Shown: piece after piece, positions 2,924 to 64,000 of the stretch
Layout of the letters: each line of letters begins with the position of its first letter
How positions within the stretch are numbered: position 1 is the first letter of the stretch
Source: Dromiciops gliroides
Taxonomy: Eukaryota; Chordata; Mammalia; Microbiotheria; Microbiotheriidae
Length of the DNA: 64,000 nt
NCBI RefSeq assembly: GCF_019393635.1
Contig: NC_057867.1
Span: 53,195,643-53,259,642 of the forward strand
Direction: 5' to 3'
Program-made: the position numbers and the translations under genes
The notes under the pieces: generated by a model
Databases searched by the model: none
The model's input: only the letters and a program-made list of their open reading frames with translations
What the model was told of the DNA's origin: nothing

Positions 2924-3898
2924 TTATGCTTCTCCAGGGTCTTGTATTTGAAAGTCGAATTTTCTAGTCAGTTCAGGTCTTTTCATCACAAATGCCTGAA
3001 AGCCCTCTTTTTCATTGAAGTCCCATTTTTCCTCTGAAAGAGTATACTCAGTTTTTCTGGGTACATGATTCTTGGCTGTAGTCCCAGTTCCTTTGCCCGC
3101 TGGAATATCATATTCCATGCCCTTCGGTCCTTTAATGTAGATGCTGCTAGATCTTTACTTATAAGAGTTCCACAGTATTTTAATTCCTTTTTTCTAGTTG
3201 CTTGTAATATTTTCTCCTTGACCTGGGAGCTCTGGAATTTGGCTATAATATTCCTGGAGGTTTTCCTTTTGGGATCTCTTTCAGGAGGTGATTGGTGGGT
3301 TCTTTCAATTTCTATTTTACCTTCTGCTTCTAGAATATCAGGGCAATTTCCCCTTACAATTTCTTGGAAGATGATGCTCTTATTTTGGTCCTGGTTTTCA
3401 GGTAGTCCAATGATTTTCAAATGATTTCTCCTGGATTTATTTTCCAGTTCAGCTGTTTTTCCAAGGAAATATTTCACATTGCCCTGTATTCTTTCATTCA
3501 ATTGGATTTGCTTTACTGTGTCTTGATTTCTCATAAGGTCACCAGCTTCCATTTGTTCAATCCTAATTCTTAGGCAATTATTTTCTTCAAACAGCTTTTT
3601 TATTTCCTTTTCCATTTGACTTTTCAAGCTATTGACTTTTTTTCTCATGACTTTCCTGCATCGCTCTCATTTCTTCTTCCATTCTTTCCTTCCTCTCTCT
3701 AAATCTTCCTTCTATTTCTCCTACTTTCTCTTCAAATTCCCTTTTGAGAGCTTCCATGGCCTGAGACCAGTTCATATTTTTCTTGGAAGCTTTAGATGTA
3801 AGGGCCCTGAGGTTGTTATCTTCTTCTGAGGCTGCACCTTGATCTTCCTTGTCACTGAAGAAACTTTCTATAATTCTAAACTTTCTTTGCTTGCTCAT
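2924..3898 (-). pseudogene. L1 ORF1p pseudogene
   Basis: The protein is the L1 RNA-binding chaperone. The N-terminus (MSKQRKFRIIESFFSDKEDQ) is followed by a charged coiled coil (about residues 60-140), an RRM start (NHLKIIGLPE) and the C-terminal domain (SRNIIAKFQSSQVKEKIL, RRAWNMIFQRAKELG, MYPEKLSILF). The frame is broken in a run of seven A on the coding strand (3643-3637) and again near 3040-3010, after which the tail (EGFQAFVMKRPELTRKFDFQ) continues in another frame. Few other defects, so fairly young but not coding. Confidence 0.85.
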
Positions 3899-40656: not shown

Positions 40657-42430
<1,774 letters not shown>

Positions 42431-46780: not shown

Positions 46781-47213
46781 TGTAGCAGGAGTTGGAAGGT
46801 GCACAGGAATGGACTTTTTGATGTCACTCTAGGGATCATGCACCGATTGCTCCTGAAAACTTCCGTAAACTCCAAGGACACAGTTGACTTGACGCTGAAG
46901 AGCCATATGACTAGAGATGACGAAGCAAGCCCTTTATTGGCCACTGAGTAAGAAGAGCTAATCACTCAACGGATGAATAAAAGGGACTGACTTGCCATCT
47001 AGTGCTGTCTTCTTTTCTTGTCTGCTGAACGTAGTAAGAATCCTCCCTCTTCTCCTTGGAGGAGTGAAAGATGCCCCATTACTATTTCTCCAAACTGGCT
47101 GAATGGTGAACTATGTGGAAAGTTCCAGAGAAGCTGTATCCTTGGTCACAGATGACTGGTTAAAGGAGTAATTATATGTTTTAAAATATATAAATTGTTA
47201 TTGATGACTTCTT

Positions 47214-47363
47214 TTTTTTTTTTTTTAGTGAGGCAACTGGGGTTAAGTGACTTGCCCAGGGTCACACAGCCAGTAAGTGTTAAGTGTCTGAGGCCGGATT
47301 TGAACTTAGGTACTCCTGACTCCAAGGCCGGTGCTCTATCCACTGCGCCATCTAGCTGCCCCC
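47214..47363 (-). mobile_element. marsupial tRNA-SINE (WSINE1/WALLSI-like)
   Basis: Nearly full-length minus-strand copy with a long T run. Exact target duplication gatgacttctt at 47203-47213 and 47364-47374. Little diverged, so young. Confidence 0.93.
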
Positions 47364-47374
47364 GATGACTTCTT

Positions 47375-47840
47375 AATATTTCTAACTAGATCATTCCTAC
47401 AATCCTTCCCAGAGAACCATCCCTTATAACAAAATGCAAAAGGGGAAGAAAGAGGAAACATTCCATAAAACTAACCAATATATCATAAAAATCTAATGTT
47501 ATATACAATATTTCTTCATAATCCGTGAAAGAAAATGAGAGGAAAGAGAGGTATTCTCATCTATTTTTTTTTCAGGCCAAGCATGTTCATTACAATTTTG
47601 AAGCATCCATTTTTGATGTTGTTGTTACATGTAGTTATATCACTGTGTTGAATGTTTTACTGGTTCTGCATACCTCATTTGGTACCAGCTCATATAAATC
47701 TTGTCATGTTTCTCTGTATTCATCATGTTTGTTGATTCTAACAGCACACTAATATCCCATTAGGTATAAGTCCTACAATTTGTTTAGCTGTTTCCCAAAT
47801 GATAGGCATTACTGCCTTTCTAATTGTTAGATTCAGATGA
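47375..47840 (-). mobile_element. L1 3' fragment, old
   Basis: Antisense L1-like pattern: 'aaccatcccttataa.aaaa...', then 'ttgtcatgtttctctgtattc' and 'gtttagctgtttcccaaatgata', which is an old version of the L1 ORF2 C-terminal region. The SINE at 47214 entered its edge. Confidence 0.6.
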
Positions 47841-48959
47841 AGGAACCAAAATTCTGAGAGACCAAGTGACATAAGTATTAAAGGATCATACATTATTAGC
47901 TAGAAGGGACTTGAAAGCTTACTGACTCCAACAATGACATTTTACAGATTAGGAAATTGAAGTTCTGAGAAAAGAAATTACTTGGGACCACAGGGTCAAA
48001 GAACGAGAGCTAGATGGGTACTAAGTCCACGTAGTCCAGGCTTATTTTGCCCATAGCAGTAGTTTGAACAGAATTGGTAATGTGCCTTCTGGGGCAAGTT
48101 CCTTCTGTATATAACAGACCTCTACTAGGAATTTCCAAAGATATAAAGCACACAAAGAACCCAATGATGCTGAAGAAGCAAGCCCTTTACTGATCAAGCA
48201 CCAAGACCACCGTATTTCAAAATAAAAGGGCTTGATCATCCATTTCCATCTCTTCCCAACAGCTAAGCAGAGCAGAGTAGGAAGCAATAAGTGTCTCCCT
48301 GGGATGGTGGAGGAAAGCTTGGTGTCCTGAACTGACTCAGGCAGGAAAAGGTAACTTGGCATACTTAAAATCTAAAACATTTCTGTGAGCCTTGGTTAGC
48401 CTAAGGAAGCTTTGGAGGAGACCAGAGACAAAGGTTACCACAAGGATGAAAGGTCTTGTGCTTTTAAATAATGATGCAAGACCTTCATTAGTATCAAAGG
48501 AGCATTACTCAAATATTAAAAAAGTATTTCACTTATCTTTTCATGACTTATTTTCTCATCACCTAAGTATAGCAAGAAACTAAGAGCTTCATTCTAGAGC
48601 TATCAAGCAATGGAGATCCCTTTGTACTCCCAAGTAAAAAATGGGGGTTTGTATATTCATGGCATTAATACATGTGCATGCGCCTTGATGATCCTGAAGA
48701 AATTTCTGAGGACACCAGGGACAAGATATCTGTAATGCTTAAGGGCTTTGTGCTTTGAGATGAAGAAACAAGCCTTTAATTAGCAGCAGTTGTGTGAAAT
48801 AACTCAACTACCAAGAAAAAGGGCTTGACCCGCCATCTCTCCATGTTTTCTTTTCCCATAAGCTGAGAAGAGCAGGAATCAATGACAATCTCCCTGGAAT
48901 GGTGGAAGAAAGCATAGCATCTTTTGCTGTCTCAGGCAGAAATAGAGAATTGCATATAC

Positions 48960-49027
48960 GTACATGTATATGGATATATACATATACACACACACATATA
49001 CATACATACATACACATATACATATAC

Positions 49028-49107
<80 letters not shown>
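48960..49107. repeat. compound microsatellite inside an array monomer
   Basis: An impure TACA/CATA tract (48960-49033) is followed by (TA)n to 49066 and (GA)n of about 20 units to 49106. It sits in one diverged monomer and stretches the local spacing by about 145 bp. Confidence 0.9.
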
Positions 49108-49111
<4 letters not shown>

Positions 49112-51635
49112 CATATATGACACACTTGGTGATCTTGAGGAAATGTCTGGGGTACATTAAGGACAAGATGGCTGAGAAGGACCTTGTGCTTTGAGATGAA
49201 GAAGCAAGCCTTTAATTAGCAGCAGTTGTGTAAAATCACTCAACTACCAGAAAAAGGGCTTGACCTGCCATCTCTCCATGGGTTCTTTTCCATAAGCTGA
49301 GCAGAGTAGGAATCAATGAGCATCTCTCCAGAATGGTAGAAGAAGGCATAGAATCCATCAATATCTCAGGCAGAAATAAGGAAATTGATCTATAAGCAAT
49401 ATAATATATATTTCAGGGCCACGTTGAGCTTGAGCAAACTACTGAGAAAAGCAGGGGCCTGACAGCTATAATGCTGAAAGGCCCTGTGTGCTGAGATAAA
49501 GAAGAAAGCCCTTGATTACAACAAATAAAAATCACTCAGTTATTAGTGAAAGGATTTGACTCACTATGTCCCCATTGTTTTCTTTTCCCATTAAATGAAC
49601 ATAGCAGGAATCAATGAACCTCTCCCTGGAATGGAGGAGAAAGACTTAATACCCTTTACTCTCACAGTACGAAATAGAGAACTTCACACACAAGTCGTGT
49701 AATACACATCTGGAGACCTTGGTGAACCTGAGGAAATTTCTAGGGATCCCACTAACATGATGGTTCACATACTGAAGGGCTTTGTGTTTTGAGATAAAGC
49801 AACAAACTTAGTAGTTGTGTAGGATTACTCAGCTATTGACTAAAGGGACATCTCCCAGTGTTTTCTCAGAAGCAGAGTCTCAGCAATCAATAAGTCTCTC
49901 CTAGAAATAGCAGGAAAAGGCCCGATACCCTTCTCTGTTACAGACAGAAATAGGGAACTGCATATCCATGGCATCTCAAAGATGTGAGGAATCTAAAAGC
50001 ATGCTTCTATAGGCTGATGCCCTTCACTAGTCTGGGGTTTAAAAGGAAAATACACCTACGTGGTCTTTTATACACATGAGACTTTGGTGATCCTGGGTTA
50101 AATTCCACAGATGTCTGCGAAAAGATGGTCCCAATGACGAAAAGCATTGTGCTTTAAGATGAAGAAGCATGCCCTTCATTCGTAGCTGAGTAAGATAACT
50201 CACTGCTAAAAAAAAGGGCCTGCCCCGCCATCTTCCACTGTCTTCTTTGCCATCAGCTGAGCAGAGCAGAATATAAGAGCCTCCTTCAGGTGACATCAAG
50301 AAGAGGCTAGTGACCTTCCCTGTCCCATATGGATATAAAGAATTACACATCTATCACAGGGCCCTTGGGAGCCCAAGGAAACTTCAGAGGACCTTATGGG
50401 AATCATTACCCATGTGTGGAAGGGTCTTGTGCCTGAAGATGAAGTAAATCCTTGATTAGCATTGAGTAAGGTAACTCATCTTTTAAGAAAAAGGCTTGAC
50501 CCACTATCTCCCACTGTTTTCTATTCCCAAGAGATGAGCAGAGTATAAATTTAAGGGACTCTCCCTGAAATGGAATAAGAAAGATTGGTATCTTTTCCCT
50601 CTTATGATACATATATGGTACCAAAAATATTTGGGGGCCCAGGTAAACCTGAAGAATGTCAGGGAGAAGATGGCTCCAATGCTGAACAGCCTTAAATATG
50701 GAAGTCAAGAAGGAAGCCCTTTATTAGTGACTGAGTCAAATAAATAAAATAGTAAGGAAAAAGGCTGCCCCACCATACCCCAGTGTCTGAGTTTCCCATC
50801 CGTTGAGTACAGGTTAAACCTCACAGTCACATTCAGGAGGAATTAAGCAGAGGCAGGAGCCTTTCTCTATTCAAGGGGAAGTAGGAAACTATACAAATAA
50901 GGCATAGTAAAGGGCCTTAGAGAGATTAAGGAAACATTCAGGGATGCCAAAGTGAAGATGCCCCCAGAGCTGAAGGGTGTTGTGCTGTGAGATGAAGGAA
51001 CAATCCCTCCCTTTATGTCTGAGTAACATCTCTAAGTAAGAATGGCAGGGGCTTGCCTCGCTTCTCCACATGTCTTCATTTCCCATCACTTGAGCAGAGC
51101 TTGACTATCAGAGCTTCATTTTGGAGGGGGTGGGAAGGGAGAGTTACCCTACCCTGTTCAAAGGAGAAACAGGAAACTGTACATATAAGGCGTGCAACAC
51201 ATATCAGGTGATGGTGAGCCTTAGGAGTCTTTGTGGACGACAGGATCAAGATGCCTCCAAAGCTGAAGGGTGCTGTGCTGTGAAATGATGGAGCAAACCC
51301 TTACTTTCTGCCTTAGTAACATTTCTAAGGCAGAAGGGCAAGGGCTAGCCCCACCATCTCAGTGGTTCTTCTTTTCCCATCAGCCATGCAAAATTTTCAA
51401 CTCAGATCTTCATTCTTGAGGAGCTGGGCAGGAGCAAATGTCTTTTACTCTTCCAGAAAAAAATAAGGAATAACATCTATTAGGCACCTAATACAAGTTT
51501 GGGGGACTGGCAAATCTAAGGACTATTTGGGGATAACAGGGTAAAGATACCTCCAAAGTTGAAAGATGTTGTGCCAAGTCATGGAGGAGCAATCCCTTCC
51601 TTTCTGCTTGAATAACACCTATCATATAGTAGAAG

Positions 51636-51892
51636 GGGCAGCTAGTTGGTACAGTGGATAGAACACCGAGCCTGGAGTCAGAAAGATCTAAGCTAAAATC
51701 TGGCCTCAGACACATACTAGCTGGGTAACCCAGGGCTCCACACAACCCCTATTTACCTCAGTTTCTCATCTACAAAAATGGGGACAACACTGGAGAAGAA
51801 AATGGCAAACCACTCTAGTATCTTCACCAAAAAACAAACAAACAAACAAACAAACCAATAAAACAAAGACCCATGGACATGACTTAACAACA
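51636..51892 (+). mobile_element. tRNA-derived SINE with RTE-type tail
   Basis: It starts 'ggggcagctagttggtacagtgg' and ends with the 'gaaaatggcaaaccactctagtatcttcacc...catggacatgacttaacaac' tail that resembles RTE LINE 3' ends. Target duplication is atagtagaag (51626-51635) and atagcagaag (51893-51902). It is inserted in a diverged array monomer and contains a (CAAA)n stretch. Confidence 0.88.
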
Positions 51893-54800
51893 ATAGCAGA
51901 AGAATCAGATATATAGGTAAGGGCCTTTCCTCATTAACTTAGGATATTTTCAATAGCAAAACCTCATTCTGGAGTTTTGGGGCAGGGGAGGATGTTCTTT
52001 CACAGGGAGATGCATAAGATGGCATCTAATGCATATTTCAGGGTCTTGATGAAACTAAGGAAGCTTTCAATGATTATAGGGAAAGAACAAGTCCTAAGCT
52101 GAAGGGGGCTGGGCTGGGAGATAAAAGCACAAACTGCCCCTTTTGTTCTCAGTAACATTTCTCATTTGGAAAGGAAAAACCTAGTCCCATTAGGTGATTG
52201 GGTCCTCTTATAAGCAGAACATGCCCTGATTATGAGAGACTCATTCTGTTGGGGCTGGGTAAGGGCCTTCTCTTTCTGGAGTTAAATGAAGAACTGGGCT
52301 AAGCATCTAATACAGATCTGGGGACCATTTGTAAATGATGGGGTCAATACATGTCTAAAGAAGAAGGCTGTTGGGCAGGGAAATGAAAGAGTAATCCCTA
52401 CTTTTCTATCTGAGTACTATTGATCAGCTAGACTGGTAAGAGCATTGCTGGCCATCTCAGTGGGTCTTCCGTTCCAATCAACTGAACAAACTCTGCATCT
52501 GAAAGCCACATTCTATGGCTTTAAAGGCAGGGCATAAGCCTTTTACTGATCCAGGGAGAAATGCATACAGAAACTGCATATGAAAGACATATAATACGTA
52601 TTTTAAGAATTCGGCACCTTGGGAACTTTTTGACTGACTCTGGCGCAGACACAGACGATTGTGGGGTTGCGAGATGAAGGAGCACCCCCTCCCTTTATAT
52701 TAGATTTAGAATTATCTAATATATTGGCAAGGGCTTGCCCCGCCATCTCAGAGGGTCTTCCATCTCCATCAGCTGAGCATATCTTCCATACCAAAGCCAC
52801 ATTCTGAAGGTTTTAGGCAGCAGTGGAAGCCTTTCCCTGTACCAGAGGAAAATGTGAAACTACATATACAAGGCATCCAATATATAGTTAGTTTAAGGAA
52901 CTTTTCAGTGATGTCAAAGTAAAGATGACTCCAGAGCTGAAGAGTGTTGGGCTATGAGATGAAGGAACAGTCCCATTCCATTTTATTTGATTAATATTTA
53001 TCAGATAGATGGGTAAGAGCTTTTGCCCCACCAATTCAGGGGGTCTTCCTTTCCCATCAACTGAGCATAGATTTCATCTCAGAGCCTCATTCAGGAGGAT
53101 TTGGACAGGCACAAATGTCCTTTAAAAAGGCAACAGCACATACAAGGCATCTAATACAGGTTTGAGGGTGATGGTGATCTGAAGATATAACTGGGAATGA
53201 GAGGGTAAAAATGCCACCAAAGTTGAAGGGTGTTGTGCTGTCAAATGAAAAGACCAAACCCTTCCTTCATATTAGACTAACATTTACCTAATATTTGGGT
53301 AAGGGCTTGCCCTACCATCTCAGTAGGTCTTTATTTCCCATCAGCTGAGCATACCTTGAATCTCAGAACCTCATTCTGGAGGTGTCAGGGTGGGGCCAAT
53401 AACCTTCATTTTCCTGGGAACTAATGAATAAATTGCACATGCAAAGTATCTAATATAGGTTTGGGGACAGTGGAGAGCCTAAGGACTCTTTGGGGATGAC
53501 AGGGTCAAGAAGGTTTCAAAGCTGAAAAATGTTGTGTTGGGAAATGAAGGAGCAATTCCTTCCACTCTAAGTAATATTTATTAGTTACTTGAGTAAGGGC
53601 TTGCCCCACCATCTCAGTGGGTCTTCCTTTCCCAGACCTGAGTAGATCTTGCATCTCAGAACCTCATTCTGGAGTTGTTGGGCAGGGTCTAATGACCTTC
53701 ATTTTCCTGGGGGAAAATAAGTAACTGCATCTAATATAAGGGGACATTGGAGAGCCTAAGAACTATTGGGGGATGAGAGAGGCAAAATGCCACCAAAACT
53801 GAAGAATATTGTGTTGTGAAATGAAGGAATAATCCTTTTGCACCATAGCAGAAAAATACCTATTAGTTAGATGGGTAGGGGCTTGCCCCTCTACCTCAGT
53901 GGGTCCTTCTTTTCCATCAGCTGAACACTTATTAATGTCATTTTGGAGCTATTGCATGGGGGCTGAAGTCCTCTTTTCTAGGAGGAAATAAGCAACTATC
54001 CATGCAATCAATCTAATACTGATTTGAGGATATCGACAAGCCTAAGAGCTATTAGGGGATGAAAGGGGCAAGATGCCGCCAAAGCTGATGGGTGCTGTGC
54101 TTTGAAATGAAGGAGCAATTCCTCCCCCTCTGACTAAGTAAGGACTAGTAGTTATTTGGGTAAGGGCTTGCCCCGACATCTCACTGGGTCCTCCTTTCTG
54201 ATCAGTGGGGCAGAACTTACATTACAGAACCTTAATTTGAAGGTATTGGATATGGTCAATGTTCTTCACTTTCCTTGATGGAAATGAGTAACTAAATATG
54301 CAAAACATCAAACAGAGGTTTGAGGAAATCAGTGAGCCTAAGAACTGCTAGGGTATTACAGGACGCCATCAGTGAAGCATACTTTGCATTTCAGAACTTC
54401 ATTTTGGAGATGTTTAGTAGTGTGCGACACCCTTCACTGTTCATAATGAATCTATGCTAACTCTGAAGATGGCGGCTATCCTAAGGATTATTCCAGACAA
54501 AAAGATCGAGATGCCTCCAGAGCTGAAGGGTGTTGATCAGGAAAAGGAATAGCTCCTTCATCTCACAGCACAACAGATTAAAACCTATTAATTAGCAGTG
54601 TTAGGGCATGCCCCTCCATTTCAATGGGACCTCCTTTCCCATCAGCTGAGCATTCAACAGCCTCATTCTGGAGGAAATGGGCAGGGTGGGGGGCTGATGT
54701 GTTTCTCTTTTTCGGGAGAAATAAGTTATCACAATGCAATACATTTAATAATGGTTTGAGTATATTGGCAAGCCTAAGAACTGTTTAGGAATGACTAGAG

Positions 54801-55054
54801 CAAGATGTCTCCAGAGCTGAAAGGAGCTGTGTTATGAGATGAAGGAGCTATTCCTTGCCCCCTAACAGATTAATATCTATTAGTTAGGTGGGTAAGGGCT
54901 TGACCCTCCATCTCAGTAGGTCTTCCTTTACCTTCAGCAGACAACATGTTGCCTAAACAGAATTTCATTCTGGAGGCTGATGACCTTTATGTTTCTTGAT
55001 GGAAACAAGCAAATACACATGCAACATACTGACCAACCTAAAAACAATTTGTGA

Positions 55055-58000
55055 ATGATGGGCACAAGATGCCTCAAAAGCAGAAGGGCGATGTGCTATG
55101 AGATGAAGGAGCAATCCCTTCCTCTTGATCTGAGTGACATCTATCAGACCAATTGGGAAAGGGCTAGCCCCTCCATCTCAGTGGGACCTCCTTGCCCATC
55201 AGCTGAGAACCCGAGAACCTCATTCTGGAGTTGTTGGGCAAGGAACGATGTGTTTCTCTTTGCCGGAAGAAAATAAGTTATTATACAAGCAATGCATCTA
55301 ATACCGGTTTGAGCATACTGGCGAGCCTAAGAACTATTTGGTAATGACGGGCGCAAGATGCCTCCAAAGCAGAAGGGCGATGTGCTGTGAGATGAAGGAG
55401 CAATCCCTTTCTTTTGACCTGATTGACATCTATCAGACCAATTGGGAAAGGGCTAGCCCCTCCATCTCAGTGGGACCTCCTTTCCCATCAGCTGAGAACC
55501 CAAGAAACTCATTCTGGAGCTACTGTCCAGGAGTTGATGACCTTCTCTTTGCTGGAAGAAAATAAGTTATTATACAAGCAATGCATCTAATACCGGTTTG
55601 AGCATACTAGCGAGCCTAAGAACTATTTGGTAATGACGGGCACAAGATGCCTCCTAAGCTGGCGGGCGATGTGCAGTAAGACAAAGGAGCAATCCCTTTC
55701 TTTTGACCTGATTGACATCTATCAGACCAATTGGGAAAGGGCTAGCCCCTCCATCTCAGTGGGACCTCCTTGCCCATCAGCTGAGAACCCGAGGACCTCA
55801 TTCTGGAGCTATTGTCCAGGAGTTGATGACCTTCTCGTTTCTGGGAGAAAATATTTTATTACACAGGCAATGCATCTAATACCGGTTTGAGCATACTGGT
55901 GAGCCTAAGAACTATTTGGTAATGAAGGGCGCAAGATGCCTCCAAAACTGGCGGGCGATGTGCTATGAGATGAAGGAGCAATCCCTTTCTTTTGACCTGA
56001 TTGACATCTATCAGACCAATTGGGAAAGGGCTAGCCCCTCCATCTCAGTGGGACCTCCTTGCCCATCAGCTGAGAACCCAAGAACCTCATTCTGAAGTTG
56101 TTGGGCAAGGAACGATATGTTTCTCTTTTCTGAAAGAAAATAAGTTATTACACAGGAAATGCATCTAATAGTGGTTTGAGCATACTGGTGAACCTAAGAA
56201 CTATTTGGTAACGACGGGCGCAAGATGCCTCCTATGCTGGCGGGTGATGTGCTATAAGATGAAGGAGCAATCCCTTTCTTTTGACCTGATTGATATCTAT
56301 CAGACCAATTGGGAAAGGGCTAGCCCCTCCATCTCAGTGGGACCTCCTTGCCCATCAGCTGAGAACCCGAGGACTTCATTCTGGAGCTATTGTCCAGGAG
56401 TTGATGACCTTCTCTTTTCTGGAGAAAATACGTTATTACACGGGCCATGCATGTAATACCAGTTTGAGCATACTGGTGAACCTAAGAACTATTTGGTAAT
56501 GAAGGGCACAAGATGCCTCCAAAGCAGAAGGGCGATGTGCTGTGAGATGAAGGAGCAATCCCTTTCTTTTGACCTGATTGACATCTATCAGACCAATTGG
56601 GAAAGGGCTAGCCCCTCCATCTCAGTGGGACCTCCTTGCCCATCAGCTGAGAACCCAAGAACCTCATTCTGAAGTTGTTGGGCAAAGAACGATATGTTTC
56701 TCTTTTCTGAAAGAAAATAAGTTATTACACAGGAAATGCATCTAATAGTGGTTTGAGCATACTGGTGAACCTAAGAACTATTTGGTAACGACGGGCGCAA
56801 GATGCCTCCTATGCTGGCGGGTGATGTGCTATAAGAAGAAGGAGCAATCCCTTTCTTTTGACCTGATTGACATCTATCAGACCAATTGGGAAAGGGCTAG
56901 CCCCTCCCTCTCAGTGGGACCTCCTTGCCCATCAGCTGAGAACCCGAGGACTTCATTCTGGAGCTATTGTCCAGGAGTTGATGACCTTCTCTTTTCTGGA
57001 GAAAATACGTTATTACACGGGCCATGCATCTAATACCGGTTTGAGCATACTGGTGAACCTAAGAACTATTTGGTAATGAAGGGCACAAGATGCCTCCAAA
57101 GCAGAAGGGCGATGTGCTGTGAGATGAAGGAGCAATCCCTTTCTTTTGACCTGATTGACATCTATCAGACCAATTGGGAAAGGGCTAGCCCCTCCATCTC
57201 AGTGGGACCTCCTTGCCCATCAGCTGAGAACCCAAGAACCTCATTCTGGAGCTACTGTCCAGGAGTTGATGACCTTCTCTTTTCGGGGAGAAAATAAGTT
57301 ATTATACAAGCAATGCATCTAATAAGGGTTTGAGCTGACTGGTGAGCCTGAGAACTATTTGGTAATGACGGGCGCAAGATGCCTCCAAAGCTGGCGGGCG
57401 ATGTGCTGTAAGATGAAGGAGCAATCCCTTTCTTTTGACCTGATTGACATCTATCAGACCAATTGGGAAAGGGCTAGCCCCTCCATCTCAGTGGGACCTC
57501 CTTGCCCATCAGCTGAGAACCCAAGAACCTCATTCTGAAGTTGTTGGGCAAGGAACGATATGTTTCTCTTTTCTGAAAGAAAATAAGTTATTACACAGGA
57601 AATGCATCTAATAGTGGTTTGAGCATACTGGTGAACCTAAGAACTATTTGGTAACGACGGGCGCAAGATGCCTCCTATGCTGGCGGGTGATGTGCTATAA
57701 GATGAAGGAGCAATCCCTTTCTTTTGACCTGATTGACATCTATCAGACCAATTGGGAAAGGGCTAGCCCCTCCCTCTCAGTGGGACCTCCTTGCCCATCA
57801 GCTGAGAACCCGAGGACTTCATTCTGGAGCTATTGTCCAGGAGTTGATGACCTTCTCTTTTCTGGAGAAAATACGTTATTACACGGGCCATGCATGTAAT
57901 ACCAGTTTGAGCATACTGGTGAACCTAAGAACTATTTGGTAATGAAGGGCACAAGATGCCTCCAAAGCAGAAGGGCGATGTGCTGTGAGATGAAGGAGCA

Positions 58001-59850
58001 ATCCCTTTCTTTTGACCTGATTGACATCTATCAGACCAATTGGGAAAGGGCTAGCCCCTCCATCTCAATGGGACCTCCTTGCCCATCAGCTGAGAACCCA
58101 AGAACCTCATTCTGAAGTTGTTGGGCAAGGAACGATATGTTTCTCTTTTCTGAAAGAAAATAAGTTATTACACAGGAAATGCATCTAATAGTGGTTTGAG
58201 CATACTGGTGAACCTAAGAACTATTTGGTAACGACGGGCGCAAGATGCCTCCTATGCTGGCGGGTGATGTGCTATAAGATGAAGGAGCAATCCCTTTCTT
58301 TTGACCTGATTGATATCTATCAGACCAATTGGGAAAGGGCTAGCCCCTCCCTCTCAGTGGGACCTCCTTGCCCATCAGCTGAGAACCCGAGGACTTCATT
58401 CTGGAGCTATTGTCCAGGAGTTGATGACCTTCTCTTTTCTGGAGAAAATACGTTATTACACGGGCCATGCATCTAATACCGGTTTGAGCATACTGGTGAA
58501 CCTAAGAACTATTTGGTAATGAAGGGCACAAGATGCCTCCAAAGCAGAAGGGCGATGTGCTGTGAGATGAAGGAGCAATCCCTTTCTTTTGACCTGATTG
58601 ACATCTATCAGACCAATTGGGAAAGGGCTAGCCCCTCCATCTCAGTGGGACCTCCTTGCCCATCAGCTGAGAACCCAAGAACCTCATTCTGGAGCTACTG
58701 TCCAGGAGTTGATGACCTTCTCTTTTCGGGGAGAAAATAAGTTATTATACAAGCAATGCATCTAATAAGGGTTTGAGCTGACTGGTGAGCCTGAGAACTA
58801 TTTGGTAATGACGGGCGCAAGATGCCTCCAAAGCTGGCGGGCGATGTGCTGTGAGATGAAGGAGCAATCCCTTTCTTTTGACCTGATTGACATCTATCAG
58901 ACCAATTGGGAAAGGGCTAGCCCCTCCATCTCAGTGGGACCTCCTTGCCCATCAGCTGAGAACCCAAGAACCTCATTCTGAAGTTGTTGGGCAAGGAACG
59001 ATATGTTTCTCTTTTCTGAAAGAAAATAAGTTATTACACAGGAAATGCATCTAATAGTGGTTTGAGCATACTGGTGAACCTAAGAACTATTTGGTAACGA
59101 CGGGCGCAAGATGCCTCCTATGCTGGCGGGTGATGTGCTATAAGATGAAGGAGCAATCCCTTTCTTTTGACCTGATTGACATCTATCAGACCAATTGGGA
59201 AAGGGCTAGCCCCTCCCTCTCAGTGGGACCTCCTTGCCCATCAGCTGAGAACCCGAGGACTTCATTCTGGAGCTATTGTCCAGGAGTTGATGACCTTCTC
59301 TTTTCTGGAGAAAATACGTTATTACACGGGCCATGCATGTAATACCAGTTTGAGCATACTGGTGAACCTAAGAACTATTTGGTAATGAAGGGCACAAGAT
59401 GCCTCCAAAGCAGAAGGGCGATGTGCTGTGAGATGAAGGAGCAATCCCTTTCTTTTGACCTGATTGACATCTATCAGACCAATTGGGAAAGGGCTAGCCC
59501 CTCCATCTCAGTGGGACCTCCTTGCCCATCAGCTGAGAACCCAAGAACCTCATTCTGGAGCTGTCCAGGAGTTGATGACCTTCTCTTTTCGGGGAGAAAA
59601 TAAGTTATTATACAAGCAATGCATCTAATAAGGGTTTGAGCTGACTGGTGAGCCTGAGAACTATTTGGTAATGACGGGCGCAAGATGCCTCCAAAGCTGG
59701 CGGGCGATGTGCTGTAAGATGAAGGAGCAATCCCTTTCTTTTGACCTGATTGACATCTATCAGACCAATTGGGAAAGGGCTAGCCCCTCCCTCTCAGTGG
59801 GACTTCCTTTCTTATCAGCCGAGCATCCATGAACCTCATTCTGGAGTTGT
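55055..59850. repeat. homogenised core of the tandem array
   Basis: About 17 consecutive monomers of 288-289 bp are nearly identical. Starts of the 'cgggcgcaagatgcctcc' block fall close to 55338, 55627, 55916, 56205, 56493, 56782, 57070, 57359, 57648, 57936, 58225, 58513, 58802, 59091, 59379 and 59668. Every unit keeps 'tttgacctgattgacatcta' and 'cagaccaattgggaaagggc' with few changes. Such identity next to diverged margins implies recent unequal exchange or gene conversion. Confidence 0.93.
56205..59667. repeat. higher-order repeat: five monomers, 1443-bp period
   Basis: Monomer types recur in register: A at 56205, 57648 and 59091; C at 56782 and 58225; D at 57070 and 58513. All intervals between like types are exactly 1443 bp. 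The order is A-B-C-D-E, A-B-C-D-E, A, then a B/D-like unit at 59379 and an E-like unit at 59668. A and C units share 'gagaaaatacgttattacac' and the 'ttcattctggagctattg' variant. B and E share 'cattctgaagttgttggg'. D carries 'gagctactgtccaggag'. Like types of different copies are almost base-identical, while A, B, D and E differ from each other at many sites. This is true higher-order structure, not simple tandem identity. Confidence 0.88.
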
Positions 59851-62800
59851 TGGGCAAGCAATGATGTATTTCTCTTTTCTGGAAGAAAATAAATTATTAT
59901 ACAAGCAATGCATCTAATAAGGGTTTGAAGCTGACTGTTGAGCCTGAGAACTATTTGGTAATGACAGGCGCAAGATGCCTCCTAAGCTGGTGGGCGATGT
60001 GCTATAAGATGAAGGAGCAATCCCTTTCTTTTGACCGGATTGACATCTATCAGACCAATTGGGAAAGGGCTAGCCCCTCCATCTCAGTGGGACTTCCTTT
60101 CTTATCAGCTGAGCATCCATGAACCTCATTCTGGAGTTGTTGGGCAAGGAATGATGTTTCTATTTTCTAGGAGAAATAAGTTATTACACATGCAATTCAT
60201 GTAATAAAGGCTTGAGTACATCCACGAGCCAAAGAACTCTTTGGGAATAATGGACACAGGAAGTCTTCAAAGCTGATAGGCACTGTGCTGTGAGATGAAG
60301 GAGCAATCCCTTCCTTTTGATCTGAATGATTATCTATCAAACCAATTGGGAAAGGGCTAGCCCCTCCCTCTCAATGAGACCTCCTTTCCCATCAGCTGGG
60401 CCTCCAAAAACCTCATTCTGGAACTATTGTCCAGGGTTTGATAGCCTTCTCTTTTCTGAAAGGAAATCAATTACTACCCATGCAATAATCTAATAGTGGT
60501 TTAAGCAGACTGGTAAGCCTAAGAACTATTTGGGAATGATGGACACAAGATGCATGCAAAGGTGAAGAGCACTGAGCTGCGAGATAAAGGAGCAATCCCT
60601 TCCTTTTGATCTGAGTGACATCTATCAAACCAATTGGAAAAGGGCTTTCCCCTCCCTCTCAGTGGGACCTCCTTTCTTATCAGCTGAGCATCCAACAGCC
60701 TCATTCTGGAGGTGCTGGGAAGGGGTTGATATGTTTCCCTTTTCTGGGAGAAATATGTTATTACTCATGTAATATACCTAATAGCAGTTTGAGCATTTTA
60801 AAGGACGGGCACAAGATGCCTCCAAAGCTGATAGGCGCTGTGCTGTGAGATGAAGGAGCAATCCCTTCCTCTTGATCTGAGCGACATCTATCAAACCAAT
60901 TGGGAAAGGGCTAGCCTTTCCCTCTCAGTGGGACCTCCTTTGCCATCAGCTAAGCATCAGAGAACCTCATTCTGGAGGTGCTGGACAGGGACTGATGTAT
61001 TTCTCTTTTCTGGGAGAAATAAGTTATTACACATCTAATAGAGTTTTGAGCATATGGGCGAACCTAAGAACTATTTGGAAGTGATGGACGCAAGGTGCCT
61101 TCAAACTAAAGGGTGCTATGGTTGTGCTGCCAGATGAAGAAGTAATCCCTTCCTTTTGATTAATGACATCTATCAGACCAATTGGTAAGGGCTTGCCCCT
61201 CCCTCTCAGTGGGACCAACCTCCTTTCCCATCAGCTGAGAGTCCACGAACCTCATTCTGGAGGTAATGGGCAAGGGCTGATGTGTTTCTCTTTTCTGGGA
61301 GGAAATCAGTTATTACACATGCAATGCATCTAAGAGATGTTTGAGTATACTGGTGAGCCTAAAAACTATTTGGGAATCATGGGGAGCAAGATGCCTTCAA
61401 AGCTGAAAGGTGTGCTATGAGATGAAGGAATGGTACCTTCCCATACCTTAATAGATTAACACTGATTAATTAGTAGGTTAAGGGCTTATCCCTCCATTTC
61501 ATTGGGACCTCCTTTTCCATCAGATGAGTGTCTAAGAACCTCATTCTGGAGTTGTTGGTGAAGGGCCATTTTTTTTTTCTTTCTGGGAGGCAATCAGCTG
61601 AACACAGCCTACATCTTAGAGACACATTCTTCAAGTGTTGGGCAGAGGCCAATACCTTTCCCTCTTCCCAGGGGAAATAAGCAAGTATGCATACAAGTTA
61701 TCTAATACAAGTTTGGGGTATCAGCGAGCCTAAATTATCTTTTAAGATGACAGGGTCAAGATGTCTCTAAAGCCGAAGTGTTGTGCTGTGAGATGAAGGT
61801 ACAACCCCTTCCTTTATATTATATTAATGTTTATCAAATATTTTGGGCAAAGGCTTGACTTGCCATCTCAGTGCTTCCTCCTCTCCCATCACCTGAACTT
61901 AGCTTGCATCTCAGAGACATTCTAGGTGTATCTGGCCAGGAGCTGATGCTTTTCCCTTGTCCTGGGGAAATTACTGACCTCACCAAATACCTAACACATA
62001 TTTGGACCACCTGGAGAAACAAAGGTACTTCTTGCTGAAAGAAGAGTAAATATTACTCTGGAGCCCAAGGTTGTTGCTGTGATATGAAGGAGTAATCTAT
62101 TCCTTTCTGAGTAACATCTCTCAAATGGAATGGAATGAACTAATCCCACCATCTCAGTGGGTCCTCTTTTCTCATCAGCTGAGCACACCTTGCATCTCAC
62201 ATCATCATTTTAGAAATGTTAGGCAAGGGTTGATGACCTTCCCTGTCCTGGATAAAAATGAGGAATTGTACATAAAAACCATTTAATACAACTAAGGGGA
62301 TATCAGGTAACCCTAAGGACTCTCTGGGGACAACAGGGTCAAAATATCACTGAAACCAAAAGGTGCTGTGCTGTGAAACAAAGTAGCAGCCTCTTGCTTT
62401 CCACCAATCAGGTCAAATGGTAAGGGCTTGCCCTTCCATTCTTTTCCTATCAGCTGAGCATATCCTGCATCTCAGAACCTAATTTGGAATATTTGGGCAA
62501 GGGAATATAATCTTTCCTTTTTGAGAGGTGAGGTGGGATGGGAGGGGAAGGAGCAATGGCACATGCAAAGCATGTGATATAGGTCTGGGGTTATCAGTAA
62601 ACCAAAGGAGTATTTGGGAACTATGGGCAATATGCCTTCAAAGCTGAAGAAGGTTGTTCTGTGAGATGAAGGAGCAACCCCTTCCTTTCTGATTAAAATT
62701 TATCAGAGAGTTGGATATGGGCTTGTCCCACCATCTCAGTGAGTATTCATTTCTCATCAGCTGAAAATACTTTGTATCCAAGAACCCCATTTTAGAGGTA

Positions 62801-64000
62801 TTGGGCAGGACTCAATGACTTTCAGTTTTCTTGGAAGAAATAAGCAACTATAGATGCAATGTATCTAAAACAGGTTTGAAGTTGTTGTTGAGTCTAAGGA
62901 ATATCTGGGGACTATTGGGACCATATGGCTCCAAAGTTGAAGGATATTGTTGTGTGAGATGAAGAAACAACGCCTTCCTTCATATTGGATTAACATCTAT
63001 CCAATATTTGGGAAAGGGCTTGTACCTCCATTTCAGTGGGCCCCTCTATCCCATCAAATGAATACAGCTTGATTCACAGAGCCTCATTTTGAAGGTTTTT
63101 TAGTAGGAGTGGATGCTCTTCCCTGTTGCATATGGAAATGAGCAACTCCACATGGTTCGAGGAAGTGTTTGATGATTAAAGGATTGAGATGCCTCCAAAG
63201 GTGAAGAGTGTTTGCTGTAACATGAAGGAGCAACCCCTTCCTTTCTATCTGATTAAAATTTTCAGAAAGTTGGGTAAGGGCTTGCCCCGCCATCTCAGTG
63301 GGACTTCATTTCCTATCAGTTTAGCAAAGCATGCACATCAGAGACTCATTCTGGAAGTTTGGGGCAGCAGCAGATCCATTTCCTTTTCCCAGGAAGAAAT
63401 GAACAACTGCACATACAAAACATCTAATAAAGTTTTGGAGACATCAATGAGCCTTTGGAGATGACAGGGTCAAGTTGCCAATGTTCCTCTTACTGCCAGG
63501 GAAGGATGGCCAACTGCATATACAAGACATCTAATATATATGTGGTGGCTTTCATTAGCCTTAGGAAACTTTTGGTGATAGCTATCAGGGTAATAAGGAT
63601 GACTCCAGAGTTGAAGAGATGATGGAACAATCCACTTCTTTTTTTCTGAGTACCATCTCTCAACTGGAAAGGAAAGAGAGTCCCATCCTGTTCCTGGACC
63701 TTCTTTTCCTATCAGCTCAGCATGGCTAGCATCTTAGATCTTCTTTCTGGTGGTTTTGGGATGGTTGAATGTTCCTCCATTTCAAGGGGGAAATGCATAC
63801 GCAGGGCATCCAGTACATGTTTGGGAGTCATTGGTGAGTCTCTGGGAACTTCCACAGATTGTAGGGACAGGATGCCTCCAAAGCTGAAGGCTGTTGGGCT
63901 GTGAGATGAAGAAGCAATCCCTTCCTCTCTATCTGAGTACCATCTATCAGATAGATGGGTAAGGGCTTGCCCCTCCATCTCAGTGGGTCTTTATTTCCCA
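59851..64000. repeat. right, diverged part of the tandem array
   Basis: About 14 monomers are increasingly diverged towards the window edge. The first ones (60.0-61.3 kb) still share 'accaattgg.aaagggct'. Later ones (61.7-64.0 kb) resemble the left-margin units ('gggcttgcccc.ccatctcagtggg'). A displaced duplication of 'tctgggagg' sequence and a T run interrupt the unit near 61.57 kb. The array is not finished at 64000. Confidence 0.88.

Follow-up and report, generated by a model that had tools for sequence, protein, structure and literature searches.

What does a tandem array of ~289-bp monomers do inside an intron of FGF13? In the window, by which we mean the whole 64-kb stretch of DNA analysed here, the array could be structural DNA, or it could encode something in the direction of its host gene. 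The original prediction took it for a satellite-like array of roughly 54 monomers in an FGF13 intron that matched no transposon, and compared it with macrosatellites of the X chromosome. The array and its setting are described below, followed by the hairpin segment of the monomer, the way in which pairing has been kept, and the readings that these observations favour.

Extent, build and setting of the array

Iterated nhmmer traced head-to-tail monomers of ~289 bp from 46,922 to 67,394 (20.5 kb), with the hairpins described below on the minus strand; the copies reach the end of the window, and the tail extends 3.4 kb past it. In the window and the adjoining genome sequence, 72 pieces were found in the plus orientation, with 65 monomer junctions in total, 54 of which have their whole hairpin window within the 64 kb. 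The first piece (46,922–47,072) is a detached fragment, followed by ~1.1 kb without a copy and then by a continuous array from 48,172. No N, and hence no assembly gap, occurs within the 74 kb surrounding the array. Tandem-repeat detection with TRF also recovered the array, though only its core: it reported 55,035–60,796 with a period of 289, 20 copies and 87% matches, together with an overlapping row that ends at 61,325, and by itself it detects just this homogenised part and not the diverged flanks. The core, placed at 55,035–61,422 by TRF, an identity matrix and a lag scan, consists of monomers 69–100% identical to one another and contains a higher-order repeat of five monomers (1,443 bp), with a longest exact repeat at that lag of 657 bp; some copies may be collapsed at this repeat in the assembly. 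The flanks are old, as neighbouring monomers of the left flank are 53–69% identical; at usual neutral rates, this divergence would roughly correspond to many tens of millions of years, an uncalibrated estimate. The GC content across the array is 0.39–0.47 in 2-kb bins.

When one core monomer was used as the query in a search of the whole genome (3.3 Gb), all 34 matches among the best candidates (7/7 scored) lay inside the array, and the array profile found no copies outside it in the 314 kb around the locus. There is thus no sign of a dispersed transposable element for the core monomer, while diverged dispersed relatives may exist. An insertion with an old SINE interrupts one monomer at 51,636–51,903, and elsewhere in the 314 kb this SINE has 69 BLAST matches averaging ~76% identity. 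Because the insertion sits within a monomer, it must postdate the array. A coding function was rejected, since the printed frames (the 45 longest of 608) reach only ~100 aa in the core and 289 cannot be divided by three.

FGF13 lies on the minus strand. Exon 4 (~42,140–42,352), which matches solved FGF13, is the next exon downstream of the array, and exon 5, the last coding exon, follows at ~40,660–40,803 with approximate ends. When the window numbering is extended into the genome, exon 3 is located near 134.3 kb, while 141,034–141,147 holds exon 2 and 143,489–143,674 the first exon of one version, all on the minus strand; a short exact match on the same strand (173,386–173,412; 9 residues, E 0.06) may represent the other first exon. 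In the direction of transcription the order is hence exon 3, array, exon 4, and since it is flanked by exon 4 (42.1 kb) and exon 3 (134.3 kb), the array lies within intron 3 (~92 kb). The original prediction was thus borne out in the unit length and extent of the array, the count of ~54 monomers, the intronic location and the absence of any sign of a dispersed element.

Hairpins on the sense strand of the host gene

The monomer carries one hairpin segment of ~85 nt when it is read on the minus strand, which is the sense strand of FGF13. Its stem is ~30 bp long with a lower stem of UGAGAUGG...CAUCUCA. Under pre-miRNA-like criteria (a folding energy of −25 kcal/mol or lower and at least 25 bp unbranched), 38 of the 65 copies passed, including 21/21 of the core and 17/44 of the others, as compared with 150 of 13,016 control windows; counted on distinct sequences, 32 of 59 passed. 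The stem length in passing copies is 27–35 bp, and the remaining 27 of 65 copies are decayed. In the same hairpin region of the minus strand, the stability z-score was below −3 in 37/65 copies (mean −3.1), a level reached by 2/195 windows elsewhere in the monomers and by 0/177 flanking windows. A single unbranched hairpin of pri-miRNA size is thus present in 38 of the 65 copies, and stability far above that of shuffled sequence in 37.

The 21 core hairpins are spaced at 266–290 bp, from the first at 55,092–55,182 (−45.6 kcal/mol, z −5.1) to the last at 60,839–60,929. The most stable hairpin of the array is located outside the core at 51,274–51,364 (−53.3 kcal/mol, z −8.7, 34 bp), and another flank hairpin at 63,895–63,985 is similarly long (−47.3 kcal/mol, z −7.0, 34 bp). 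At 52,663–52,753, the apical stem is unlike that of the core in sequence yet paired (−42.3 kcal/mol, z −5.9). Further examples are an old left-flank hairpin at 50,148–50,238 (−39.2 kcal/mol, 35 bp) and a right-flank hairpin at 62,948–63,038 (−30.9 kcal/mol, z −4.4), and the copy at 48,457–48,547 exemplifies decay without a hairpin (z +0.7); all of these are given for the minus strand.

The sense strand is the more stable one in 53/65 copies, and in 32 of 44 outside the core (p 0.004). The plus strand also passes the criteria in 27/65 copies, as the hairpin is a near-palindrome, so the strand assignment rests on gene context together with stability. Across the window and 90 kb of sequence next to it, no match to an Rfam family attained the gathering score, which is expected of an undescribed family, and such a score is not required of a microRNA. 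Below that score, three weak microRNA matches (mir-204, mir-642 and mir-3688) overlie monomer hairpins on the minus strand; that of mir-204 (51,281–51,362, E 0.011) falls on the most stable hairpin, and that of mir-3688 (63,902–63,982, E 0.58) on the flank hairpin at 63,895–63,985. A weak mir-491 match on the plus strand (52,181–52,258, E 0.73) overlaps no more than the edge of a hairpin window, the strongest of the weak Rfam matches lie at the microsatellite near 49.0 kb, and 70 kb of intron 3 outside the array gave microRNA matches at one spot only. A basal UG at −14 was found in 42/65 copies and a CNNC at +18 in 38/65; other positions peak as well, and these counts carry low weight because the copies are homologous. 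The predicted 5p seed, AGCCCUU, occurs in 40/65 copies and is the seed of miR-129-3p.

Pairing and conservation among diverged copies

Covariation was evaluated on 35 of the 55 aligned copies, which were kept for having few indels. Paired cells amounted to 81.5% in these copies and fell to 39–53% when the pairing was slid. Double-changed cells numbered 83, a value reached by none of 500 shuffles (39.3 in shuffles), and neither 81.5% paired nor 83 double-changed was reached in any of 600 neutral simulations along the tree of the 35 copies, a model that does not include correction between arms. Double changes were seen at 21 pairs, which 22 of 500 shuffles also reached. Structure is kept under sequence change in this set, that is, pairing outlasts sequence divergence through compensatory changes. 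RNAalifold with RIBOSUM scoring on the 35 rows reached −39.9 kcal/mol on the sense strand, as compared with −29.4 kcal/mol on the opposite one; with default scoring, the sense strand yielded only a fragment and the other strand nothing, and zero pairs were predicted from the unfiltered 55-copy alignment, which includes decayed copies. 

Conservation is also higher in the hairpin than in the remainder of the monomer, both in the core (0.94 vs 0.84, p 1e-6) and in the outer copies (0.63 vs 0.57, p 0.01), and the top-conserved 10-nt bins of old copies, at 0.80 and 0.76, belong to the lower stem. In the outer copies, 17/290 shifted 90-position blocks slightly outscored the hairpin block, which is thus not the single best-conserved one; the best begins 15 positions earlier.

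Since more than half of the copies still encode a microRNA-type hairpin in the direction of the gene, the array is probably a large microRNA cluster and not structural DNA. We put the probability at about 80% that it is an intronic cluster of microRNA genes, grown by tandem duplication and built like C2MC of mouse Sfmbt2. The sense-strand hairpin, which had been overlooked in the original prediction, explains the array better than a satellite does. Transcription, processing, targets and benefit are the parts of this cluster that we infer. FGF13 transcripts containing intron 3 would carry the whole array, Drosha/DGCR8 would excise the hairpins before or during splicing, and Dicer would then yield ~22-nt products repressing other mRNAs, with a dose presumably set by copy number. 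Unequal exchange and conversion would keep the core fresh as the outer copies drift, some of them retaining the hairpin via compensatory changes and others decaying.

An ordinary satellite with a chance inverted repeat is an unlikely alternative, in which the arms would be matched by correction at the DNA level (template switching at quasi-palindromes) and not by selection on RNA. It accords with the satellite-type dynamics of a homogenised core, a higher-order repeat and diverged edges, and with the copies that fail the hairpin criteria; a comparison of G-U pairs with A-C mismatches, which gave no strand signal exceeding column composition, did not tell RNA from DNA causes of pairing. Such correction should erase wobble, yet fixed G-U pairs persist at columns 13–84 in 32/35 copies and at columns 17–80 in 28/35. 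The higher stability of the sense strand, the conservation of the lower stem in old copies, and a hairpin whose size and position suit a pri-miRNA in the sense orientation of its host also speak against it. That the hairpins are real RNA elements of another kind, serving for example as dsRNA for endo-siRNAs, in RNA editing or in FGF13 splicing, appears highly improbable: near-identical core copies could form siRNA-like pools and the hairpins are placed between exons 3 and 4 of the gene, but the 27–35 bp stem, the unbranched shape and the conserved lower stem suit Drosha substrates.

Macrosatellites of the DXZ4, FIRRE and ICCE type on the X chromosome have a CTCF site in each unit. By analogy with them, the array might act in chromatin folding or X inactivation, and we regard this as extremely improbable. 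One CTCF core consensus pattern, allowed up to 2 mismatches, was found 35 times in the window against 35.5 expected; seven matches lie within 46.9–64 kb with just one past 50.3 kb, so there is not one per unit, and a CTCF array was rejected. The monomer is far below macrosatellite size, and this, the GC range and the closing of the array within 20.5 kb in one intron do not support the satellite or macrosatellite analogy. Its remaining support is that the array lies in a gene that is X-chromosomal in human (PMC7854456), and that the contig of 85.16 Mb would be compatible with a small X.

Comparison with known microRNA clusters

Several known systems resemble the array in part. The MIR-506 family is likewise multicopy and fast-evolving, and it is X-linked between SLITRK2 and FMR1, outside FGF13, and derived from MER91C transposons (PMC11031087), whereas no dispersed source was found for the present monomer. 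C19MC of primates, a large cluster whose growth is attributed to duplication, includes members with the seed of an older microRNA family; it differs in its location on human chromosome 19, its host and its sequence (PMC7564603). An intron of human FGF13 hosts miR-504, which is a single microRNA (PMC6697756). It is not evident as the source of the array, as its mature sequence (an approximate query) matched nowhere in the 314 kb with fewer than 6 mismatches. NOVEL-16 of the Tasmanian devil and thylacine (MirGeneDB 2.1, as described in PMC10552650) is a multicopy marsupial family with slight sequence variations; compared by description, it is a lead only for the identity of the array, whose hairpins may already be annotated microRNAs. 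None of the best matches listed, in a literature mostly without subscription papers, linked FGF13 with a marsupial microRNA cluster. 

It is conceivable, though doubtful, that the array is an old, still-growing microRNA factory, in which FGF13 expression would flood cells with dozens of 5p products that carry the predicted seed of the conserved miR-129-3p and so join its existing network, and changing apical stems would supply new 3p seeds. If so, FGF13 would be a repeated birthplace of microRNAs, with miR-504 in human and the cluster in marsupials. If the array is expressed, copy number at this locus would be tied to the dose of regulators sharing that seed.

The closest likeness is to C2MC, the miR-466/467 cluster in intron 10 of mouse Sfmbt2, which has hairpins on the host sense strand, a tandem unit of 296 nt (~289 here) with a pre-miRNA of ~83 nt that is retained in only some of the units, a central higher-order repeat, diverged flank units and a unit confined to that intron (PMC3212979). 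Confinement to one intron, the host sense strand, a higher-order centre and diverged flanks are all found in the present array, a resemblance and not descent. C2MC differs in host gene, sequence and lineage, has 193 units as compared with 65 junctions here, and its hairpins overlap CA/TG microsatellites with B1 fragments (PMC3212979); the array is not a member of C2MC itself, because its hairpins lack such an overlap in the alignments. The C2MC microRNAs have miRBase entries and are expressed from the paternal allele in placenta (PMC7564603), whereas microRNAs of the present array are predicted from sequence. What resembles a satellite can thus be a gene cluster, and the array is likely a second example of C2MC-type architecture, in a different gene and lineage, where copies from near-identical to ~55% identical would display at a single locus how microRNA genes are born, are maintained by compensatory change and decay.

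Extent and genomic setting of the array

TRF gave a single row of 289-bp tandem repeats at 55,035–60,796. An iterated nhmmer search, using a profile from the core units (the homogenised monomers at 55,035–61,422), traced the array, with all units in a single orientation, from 46,922 across the window boundary into the adjoining genome sequence as far as 67,394; 65 monomer junctions were counted in total. No N occurs in the surrounding 74 kb. The array of the original prediction is real, and its estimate of ~54 monomers matches the 54 copies fully inside the window. The first piece is a detached fragment, separated by a gap that contains a SINE match (47,254–47,361) from the uninterrupted array, which starts at 48,172; two further SINE matches within the array (51,636–51,903 and 64,635–64,712) are usable for dating. 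The types of SINE suggest a marsupial genome. Five core monomers make up one period of a 1,443-bp higher-order repeat, which includes an exact stretch of 657 bp. Core monomers shared 69–100% identity; neighbouring monomers of the left flank were 53–69% identical.

FGF13 lies on the minus strand. Its exons 4 and 5 are inside the window, and exons 3, 2, and one first exon were located upstream of them, with a second first exon, a short and weak match only, farther upstream. The array therefore occupies part of the ~92-kb intron 3, between exons 4 and 3, consistent with the predicted FGF13 location. Downstream of the gene, at 2989–3666 on the minus strand, an open frame resembling LINE-1 ORF1 (226 residues from stop to stop) was recognised by eye. 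The 3.30-Gb assembly (17 contigs, with the array on one of 85.16 Mb) was also searched; among the best-scoring candidates, all 34 matches to a core monomer were within the array, and a 601-bp left-flank query matched only itself and three other array segments. This argues against a dispersed element, though distant relatives could escape a search that scores the best candidates only.

A hairpin within the monomer

The array profile matched 72 plus-strand pieces and 53 shorter minus-strand ones, which span monomer junctions and thus reveal an inverted repeat. When folded, many copies formed an ~85-nt hairpin on the FGF13 sense (minus) strand, which others lacked. In 91-nt windows, stability z-scores below −3 were obtained for 37/65 copies on the minus strand and 23/65 on the plus strand, as against 2/195 control windows elsewhere in the monomers and 0/177 in the flanks. 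The minus strand was the more stable in 53/65 copies, including 32/44 outside the core (two-sided p = 0.004). A simple pre-miRNA-like rule was passed by 38/65 copies (core 21/21, others 17/44), corresponding to 34/54 copies wholly within the window and 32/59 distinct sequences, compared with 150/13,016 control windows on both strands. A covariance model, trained on 35 of the array copies that it then scored, gave 115 matches at E ≤ 1 over 114 kb (best 107 bits, minus strand), of which two were outside the array (E = 0.16 and 0.42).

Selected structure or palindromic satellite

A palindromic satellite is the main rival to a microRNA cluster. The alignment comprised 55 copies, with 10 of the core's 21 omitted; a structure-blind indel rule kept 35 rows and dropped 20. 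In the 35, 81.5% of cells were paired and 83 were changed on both sides; slid registers paired 39–53% of cells, and shuffles averaged 74.9% and 39.3 double-changed cells. Double changes occurred in 21 pairs, a count reached by 22/500 shuffles. Because kinship among copies can mislead, neutral evolution was simulated under three settings on a FastTree phylogeny of these monomers, starting from a fully paired ancestor and with divergence kept similar. None of the 600 runs reached 81.5% or 83, and one had at least as many pair types as the real copies. Conservation was higher in hairpins than in the remaining monomer, both in the core (0.94 vs. 0.84, p = 1e-6) and in outer copies (0.63 vs. 0.57, p = 0.01), where the lower stem (0.69) exceeded the apical part (0.52). 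Counting against a selected structure, RNAalifold found no pairs across all 55 aligned rows, the G-U versus A-C comparison was uninformative, and 17/290 shifted blocks in outer copies slightly outscored the hairpin block. A second conserved stretch lies 5′ of the hairpin in the RNA sense, at profile positions 81–100 (e.g., 55,185–55,204; outer-copy majority TCTTCTTTTCCCATCAGCTG, plus strand, identity 0.66–0.70).

Candidate microRNA identity and known systems

We consider a tandem intronic microRNA cluster the best explanation of the array, with a probability of about 0.8; the macrosatellite reading put forward earlier was not supported. The hairpins match primary microRNAs in size, in having a single stem, in lying on the host-sense strand, and in the conservation of the lower stem. 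On the minus strand, three Rfam miRNA matches, all below threshold, coincide with monomer hairpins. A fourth, to mir-491, lies on the plus strand and overlaps only the edge of one hairpin window. Further ones fall near 49.0 kb, at an AC/TA/AG microsatellite within a monomer (48,940–49,106), whose weak matches to mir-297, mir-466, and similar families were taken as low-complexity noise. An array-free 70 kb of the same intron gave miRNA matches at a single spot, on both strands. A basal UG motif reportedly lies at −14, a rule of Fang and Bartel. If the lower-stem UG is this motif, the predicted 5p product would start with AAGCCCUU or UAGCCCUU. The seed AGCCCUU stood in the predicted place in 40/65 copies (19/44 outside the core), and is that of miR-129-3p in the sequence carried by PMC4614026.

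Parts of the array may already be present in catalogues of marsupial miRNAs. PMC10552650 reports NOVEL-16, a multicopy miRNA family of devil and thylacine. PMC6697756 places miR-504 in an intron of human FGF13. The closest build is that of C2MC, the mouse miR-466/467 cluster, for which PMC3212979 gives a 296-nt unit holding an ~83-nt pre-miRNA on the host sense strand, confined to Sfmbt2 intron 10, with longer central repeats and looser flank units. The array is close to these unit and pre-miRNA sizes and shares the strand, the centre-to-flank pattern, and, among the matches scored, confinement to one intron; it is not C2MC, though on paper it would work alike.
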